Assembly (NCBI RefSeq): GCF_016862755.1
Contig: NZ_BONO01000002.1
Coordinates: forward strand, 186,001 to 250,000
Reading direction: 5' to 3'
Source of the DNA: Cellulomonas pakistanensis
Lineage (GTDB): Bacteria; Actinomycetota; Actinomycetes; Actinomycetales; Cellulomonadaceae
DNA length: 64,000 nt
Below, in pieces: positions 32,133-32,167 of this stretch. The first letter of the stretch is position 1. Every line of letters begins with the position of its first letter. The notes under the pieces are model-generated. The model searched no databases and had not been told where the DNA came from. It saw only the letters and a program-made list of their open reading frames with translations. Both the position numbers and the translations under genes were made by a program.

Positions 32133-32167
32133 CTCCTTCCCCGCCTCACGGGACGGTGTTAAAGGAA
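32133..32167 (-). promoter_or_regulatory. PyrR-binding hairpin sequestering the pyrR ribosome-binding site
   Basis: The minus strand carries TCCCGTGAGG, which fits the PyrR binding-loop core UCCNGNGAGG. Below it, TTCCTT (32162-32167) can pair with AAGGAG (32133-32138), which is the pyrR Shine-Dalgarno sequence. PyrR bound to this stem would block translation, the mechanism reported for mycobacterial pyr operons. The rest of the 381-base gap 32125-32505 holds a candidate promoter, GC-rich CCGCGCGTCCGCCC repeats and the inverted repeat at 32362-32427. Confidence 0.8.

Follow-up and report, generated by a model that had tools for sequence, protein, structure and literature searches.

The window analysed here, a 64,000-nucleotide stretch of the Cellulomonas pakistanensis genome, carries on its minus strand a pyr operon with the gene order pyrR-pyrB-pyrC-small ORF-carA-carB-pyrF (Table 1). 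The first gene encodes PyrR, as the first-pass annotation had it, and the NCBIfam equivalog match leaves a wide margin over its cut-off. Sequences from solved structures that match this protein at E 1e-10 or better number 11, all of them PyrR proteins, and its closest named relatives are mostly from Cellulomonas. The motif TRIAHE and a 10-residue segment are common to the window's PyrR and to three aligned solved chains of reconstructed ancestral PyrR; both are presumably involved in RNA binding. The six junctions of the operon all overlap, by 1-4 nt (ATGA, ATGA, TGATG, ATGA, TGATG and GTGA, in gene order), in keeping with the coupled operon proposed in the first-pass annotation. The small ORF holds the same place between pyrC and carA as in mycobacteria.

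Table 1. Features of the pyr leader and operon, in window positions
Feature	Position	Strand	Basis
Putative -10 box TAAGGT	32183..32188	(-)	Located by script; conserved TANNNT position
PyrR-binding hairpin (predicted)	32133..32167	(-)	RF00515 match at identical coordinates, MFE fold, covarying upper stem
Lower stem 5' arm UUCCUU (anti-Shine-Dalgarno)	32162..32167	(-)	Fold and position
Upper stem and PyrR recognition loop CCGUCCCGUGAGGCGG	32141..32156	(-)	Columns invariant or covarying
pyrR Shine-Dalgarno AAGGAG = lower stem 3' arm	32133..32138	(-)	8 nt 5' of ATG
Start-codon hairpin CCGGA-UGACC-UCCGG, encloses pyrR AUG	32114..32128	(-)	Fold and swap tests
pyrR, 196 aa	31534..32124	(-)	NCBIfam NF003547 PyrR equivalog 275.1 bits, cut-off 230
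pyrB	30473..31537	(-)	NCBIfam; ATGA overlap with pyrR
pyrC	29124..30476	(-)	NCBIfam; ATGA overlap with pyrB
Small ORF, membrane-protein-like by eye	28582..29124	(-)	TGATG overlap with pyrC
carA	27359..28585	(-)	Named by eye from translation; ATGA overlap with preceding small ORF
carB	24003..27359	(-)	NCBIfam; TGATG overlap with carA
pyrF	23137..24006	(-)	Named by eye from translation; GTGA overlap with carB

The interval between nusB and pyrR holds a palindromic 78-bp repeat (32355-32432) with 26-nt arms that are 92% complementary. Among the best 40 of 72 candidates it recurs at E <1e-5 in at least 25 distinct places of the genome, its own included (59 matches among those listed, many palindromes being counted on both strands), and it is a dispersed REP- or MITE-like family. 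Strong GC-rich inverted repeats in the same interval, at 32205-32234 and 32452-32491, lack a terminator-type T run and are possibly terminators of the upstream transcript. Elsewhere in the window an FMN riboswitch occupies 11212-11347 on the minus strand (85 bits).

Just 5' of pyrR lies a 35-nt hairpin element, located by script at 32167..32133 of the minus strand, with the sequence UUCCUUUAACACCGUCCCGUGAGGCGGGGAAGGAG. In its lower stem UUCCUU (32167-32162) can pair with AAGGAG (32138-32133), the basal pair being a U-G wobble; in the upper stem CCGUC pairs with GGCGG around the loop CCGUGA, and upper stem and loop together carry the PyrR core UCCCGUGAGG. The MFE structure of the 35-mer contains both helices, at -12 kcal/mol, with the outermost U and G left unpaired. 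Thus the pairing of TTCCTT with the AAGGAG ribosome-binding site, put forward in the first-pass annotation, is recovered by folding, and 8 nt separate the 3' end of the hairpin from the pyrR ATG (AUG at 32124-32122). Hairpin stability was rejected as evidence: 22 of 200 shuffled sequences fold equally well (z -1.26). Since the fold energy is ordinary for the composition, the case rests on homology, and what exceeds chance here is the sequence of the hairpin and its conservation, not its fold energy alone. A GAC/GUC extension of the lower stem, present at many loci, was likewise considered and dropped when swapping of the flanks gave z values of -0.4, -0.6, +0.9 and +0.9.

A cmscan against all of Rfam placed RF00515, the PyrR binding site, exactly at 32133-32167 on the minus strand with a score of 28.5 bits, short of the gathering score of 54; the search covered 301 bases, and E was 0.037. 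Of the 115 model positions the match covers 3-38, the hairpin part alone, and includes the binding hairpin with its UCCNGNGAGG loop as drawn in Rfam; a scan of the whole window at the gathering score does not list it. A covariance model of our own, built from 64 distinct actinobacterial hairpins of which the window's sequence is one row, scores 51 bits at this site; the next-best match reaches 11.6 within the window and 13.3 within the genome. In an alignment of 99 matches, fitted to this same model and comprising 80 distinct rows, the window's among them, pairing of the upper helix stands at 95.8% and both sides change in four of its six pairs, one pair being C-G in 39 rows and G-C in 38. The structure as a whole has a covariation score of 0.210, compared with 0.108 in shuffles (0/500), and most loop positions are conserved while stem pairs vary. 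The lower stem, paired at 75.6% in the alignment of the phylum sample, can hardly be tested by covariation because it is tied to the ribosome. The PyrR binding-loop core recognised in the first-pass annotation is thus upheld, by the RF00515 match at its exact coordinates and by covariation of the upper stem.

The element accompanies pyrR widely. A PyrR protein search of 39 genomes, the window's own included, found 38 with a match at E 1.5e-28 or better; that in the remaining genome, G027, is weak (6.6e-4) and may be a different phosphoribosyltransferase. A first set of 110 pyrR loci (30 from relatives and 80 from Actinomycetota) was reduced to 103 distinct loci by removal of seven duplicates, and the hairpin lies 5' of pyrR in all 103; a strict pattern made the call in 107 of the 110, and a relaxed pattern in the others (L043, L051 and L070). 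With the stricter filters meant for large searches, our model found matches in 371 of 393 genomes and 118 of 123 genera of the class, and in 153 of 396 genomes and 90 of 246 genera of the phylum. The hairpin is therefore near-universal in the class. Mostly there is one match per genome, with two in 12 of the 371 class genomes and in one of the 153 phylum genomes; the 12 all belong to a single family, f21 (e.g. G473, G493, G521, G527, G533, G545). Among 20 listed of the 22 class genomes with no model match, 13 belong to family f104 and 10 to genus g288, including G457, G496, G553 and G577, and other g288 genomes do match; it is possible that the element was lost or has diverged in these members. 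Across the phylum, only two of 20 sampled loci, L208 and L218, reach the gathering score of RF00515, and both are of the terminator type. As the other 18 fall under the threshold, routine annotation would leave the hairpin blank.

Transcription should place the element at the head of the operon mRNA. A scan for sigma-70 consensus promoters found nothing, and a positional test of the -10 box was used instead. Of the 103 distinct loci, 100 have a TANNNT motif that begins 14-40 nt before the hairpin, mostly at 20-25 nt; five control intervals gave 1-11 such loci, and 200 shuffles averaged 9.0 with a maximum of 18. In the phylum sample the figures are 96 against 7 of 110. Given its near-fixed place, transcripts should begin just 5' of the hairpin, at a start predicted from this motif test at about 32175-32177, some 9 nt upstream. 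A start 3' of 32167, the contrary case raised in the first-pass annotation, is unlikely in view of TAAGGT at 32188-32183 and of the conservation of its position.

The reading that we favour, with a probability of about 0.88, is that PyrR together with a uridine nucleotide hides the pyrR Shine-Dalgarno sequence, silencing pyrR and the operon coupled to it. In the pathway that we infer, from transcription start to polarity, every operon mRNA made from the promoter near 32183-32188 would open with about 9 nt followed by the PyrR hairpin. At high levels of UMP (or UTP), PyrR would bind the UCCCGUGAGG loop and stem and lock the hairpin, which would place the AAGGAG of the 3' arm out of the ribosome's reach and leave pyrR untranslated; the six downstream genes, joined by their overlaps, would be silenced along with it. 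When pyrimidines are scarce, PyrR would release the RNA and ribosomes would open the hairpin. In the Bacillus-type system, UMP promotes binding of PyrR to RNA (PMC12369341).

The rival readings of the hairpin differ in what is blocked and by what. Were the leader a Bacillus-type attenuator, PyrR would stabilise an anti-antiterminator hairpin and RNA polymerase would halt at a terminator 5' of pyrR. The hairpin family is identical, and a terminator does occur in some deep lineages of the phylum (8 of 110 loci, and L208 and L218 are the ones that reach the Rfam gathering score). In the window, however, no terminator was found in 31900-32520, and the 8 nt between hairpin and ATG leave no room for an antiterminator and a terminator, so that attenuation is exceedingly improbable here and the first-pass annotation was right to set termination control aside. 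The comparison with terminator types also bears on the Shine-Dalgarno itself. The AAGGA of the lower stem is present in terminator-type PyrR elements too (the Rfam consensus, L208, L218); its conservation alone is therefore no proof of a ribosome-binding site, a reading for which spacing and the absence of a terminator argue, and the lower stem may predate its role in ribosome binding.

Alternatively, the hairpin could dampen translation by itself, as a fixed or temperature-responsive structure that does not depend on PyrR, its PyrR-like loop being a relic. The Shine-Dalgarno is indeed mostly paired in free RNA, its mean unpaired probability being 0.06 in the free leader of the window's own locus (L001) and its median 0.19 over 102 loci, and where the RNA alone keeps the site closed the contribution of PyrR might be small. 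Yet the loop is kept at most positions where the stem pairs drift, and the element stands before pyrR at every distinct locus, which makes a relic very unlikely. Less easily set aside, though we still hold it to be improbable, is the view that translation is blocked as proposed and that the distal genes are lost mostly through Rho termination or mRNA decay, not through broken translational coupling; this would follow from general knowledge of polarity, but the gene overlaps alone could account for co-repression.

Beside the PyrR hairpin, the leader contains a second one that encloses the pyrR start codon and would form a second barrier to initiation. When the 116-nt leader is folded, the MFE structure contains both hairpins. 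The start-codon hairpin alone has -6.3 to -7.0 kcal/mol; in an isolated 32-nt piece a different fold beats it, and in the free leader the start codon is about half unpaired (0.52, L001). It is identical in the window's nearest relatives (L001-L004), at which level there is no covariation, and stems of like shape occur farther afield: GUCCGU-UUCGU-AUGGAC in Streptomyces, GCGCAC-UGAU-GUGUGC in a Nocardioides and GCCAG-AUGA-CUGGC in L026. Many members, such as L022 and L067, have no clear stem at the start codon.

The pairing was assessed by an alignment-free swap test, in which the spacer of each locus is joined to its own coding start or to those of other loci. In the first set, from which L066 was left out because it has no ATG, GTG or TTG at 5-16 nt, own pairs fold better with 15 coding nt (z -6.1, -4.2 and -4.1 at 65, 36 and 25 representatives) and with 24 (z -4.5, -3.2 and -3.8, respectively). 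Controls gave z between -2.5 and +2.3; the lowest, which pairs coding positions 91-100 with 101-124, gave -2.5, -1.9 and -0.6, the last at 25 representatives. Stems that score at least 12 and enclose the start were found in 13 of 28 representatives, with 5.6 expected (0/5000); at a score of at least 13 the excess over expectation among these 28 is not significant (7 vs 4.1, 372/5000), and the same holds at 14 or above. Applied to the starts of pyrB, pyrC and efp (16, 35 and 8 representatives), the swap test detected no effect, pyrC being reversed at +2.5; at nusB it leans the same way as at pyrR (z -1.7 with n=10, -1.5 with n=7).

A second, phylum-wide sample, which mixes architectures and uncertain starts, and from which 30 of 109 matches (the window's own aside) were dropped for lack of an open start, gave a weak result in the same direction: z -2.15, -1.45 and -1.14 with 15 nt, and -0.85, -0.94 and -0.25 with 24 nt. 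Because that sample is mixed, a third was taken within the class and the 15-nt test was repeated. It consists of 60 further loci, 20 from the search and 40 picked by genus among the best-scoring matches listed, and is thus not an even draw; 58 were usable, L253 and L256 being dropped since their stretch has no pyrR match, and they yielded 36 representatives unlike each other and unlike the first set. Here z was -4.4 (0/10,000), or -4.1 when swaps were stratified by GC, with displaced controls at +0.4, -1.1 and +0.8. As the pattern had first been noticed by eye in the first set, it is the third that provides a fair test.

It could still be held that the start-codon hairpin is a functionless by-product of codon choice or composition. 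The members that lack a clear stem, the weak outcome in the second, mixed sample, the missing excess of the strongest stems and a start codon that is open about half the time in the free leader would all fit such an account. The effect nevertheless returned in fresh data, survived GC stratification and vanished in the displaced controls, and the starts of pyrB, pyrC and efp do not share it; a by-product is accordingly doubtful. As far as these comparisons reach, pairing at the start codon is kept while the sequence differs between genera. Such a shape-conserved hairpin may be new: among the papers listed from the literature collection searched, titles and the openings of abstracts mention neither a start-codon hairpin nor a leader ORF at pyrR.

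How the PyrR hairpin is connected to pyrR varies across the phylum. In a sample of 110 loci, the window's included, from at least 154 model matches, pyrR stands directly behind the hairpin in 75, a short ORF intervenes in 20 and a terminator was called by script in 8; in three the script called neither, though they look terminator-like by eye, and four have no pyrR match. The leader ORF is 13-40 codons long in most cases, and its start follows the hairpin's Shine-Dalgarno. In 14 of the 20 its stop is embedded in ATGA or GTGA, perhaps the start of pyrR itself, and this arrangement suggests that PyrR control reaches pyrR via translational coupling. Loci with such a leader ORF include L151, L156, L161, L168, L169, L171, L173 and L174, as well as L176, L186, L189, L201, L206, L211, L212 and L217. 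Four leaders (L162, L175, L192 and L197) combine PyrR hairpin, leader ORF and terminator; in these, translation of the leader could decide termination, bridging attenuation and translational control. In genome G393 a second PyrR hairpin (L163) lies 5' of a gene that by eye is carA-like, with a six-codon ORF that overlaps the gene start.

For Mycobacterium smegmatis, Fields and Switzer (2007, J Bacteriol 189:6236) reportedly described translational repression of the pyr operon by PyrR. There, as in the window, the PyrR hairpin is reported to overlap the first ribosome-binding site of the operon, with no terminator; by this analogy the mechanism proposed for the window is one already known. The two differ in family, and in the start-codon hairpin that is described here for the window. 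With the Bacillus subtilis attenuator (RF00515) the window shares the binding hairpin and the loop consensus, but no antiterminator or terminator was found, the 3' arm is the Shine-Dalgarno sequence and the score stays at 28.5 bits, under 54. Ribosomal proteins are subject to autogenous translational repression, and here too a gene of a coupled operon would encode a protein that blocks access to the ribosome-binding site of its own message, except that the repressor is a nucleotide-sensing relative of phosphoribosyltransferases.

A tentative extension, to which we give somewhat less than even odds, is that the leader has two locks, the second of them, over the start codon, being needed for tight PyrR-responsive repression, and that an ancestral attenuator lent its AAGGA stem as a Shine-Dalgarno sequence to leader ORFs coupled to pyrR first and then to pyrR; the direction of change, from attenuator through leader ORF to direct control of pyrR, is a guess. 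The PyrR hairpin itself is widespread and sub-threshold in Rfam, and the start-codon hairpin is the part that a specialist may not expect. Together, the start-codon hairpin and the variants with leader ORF and terminator offer a natural series in which to study how one protein-RNA switch passes between the control of transcription and the control of translation.
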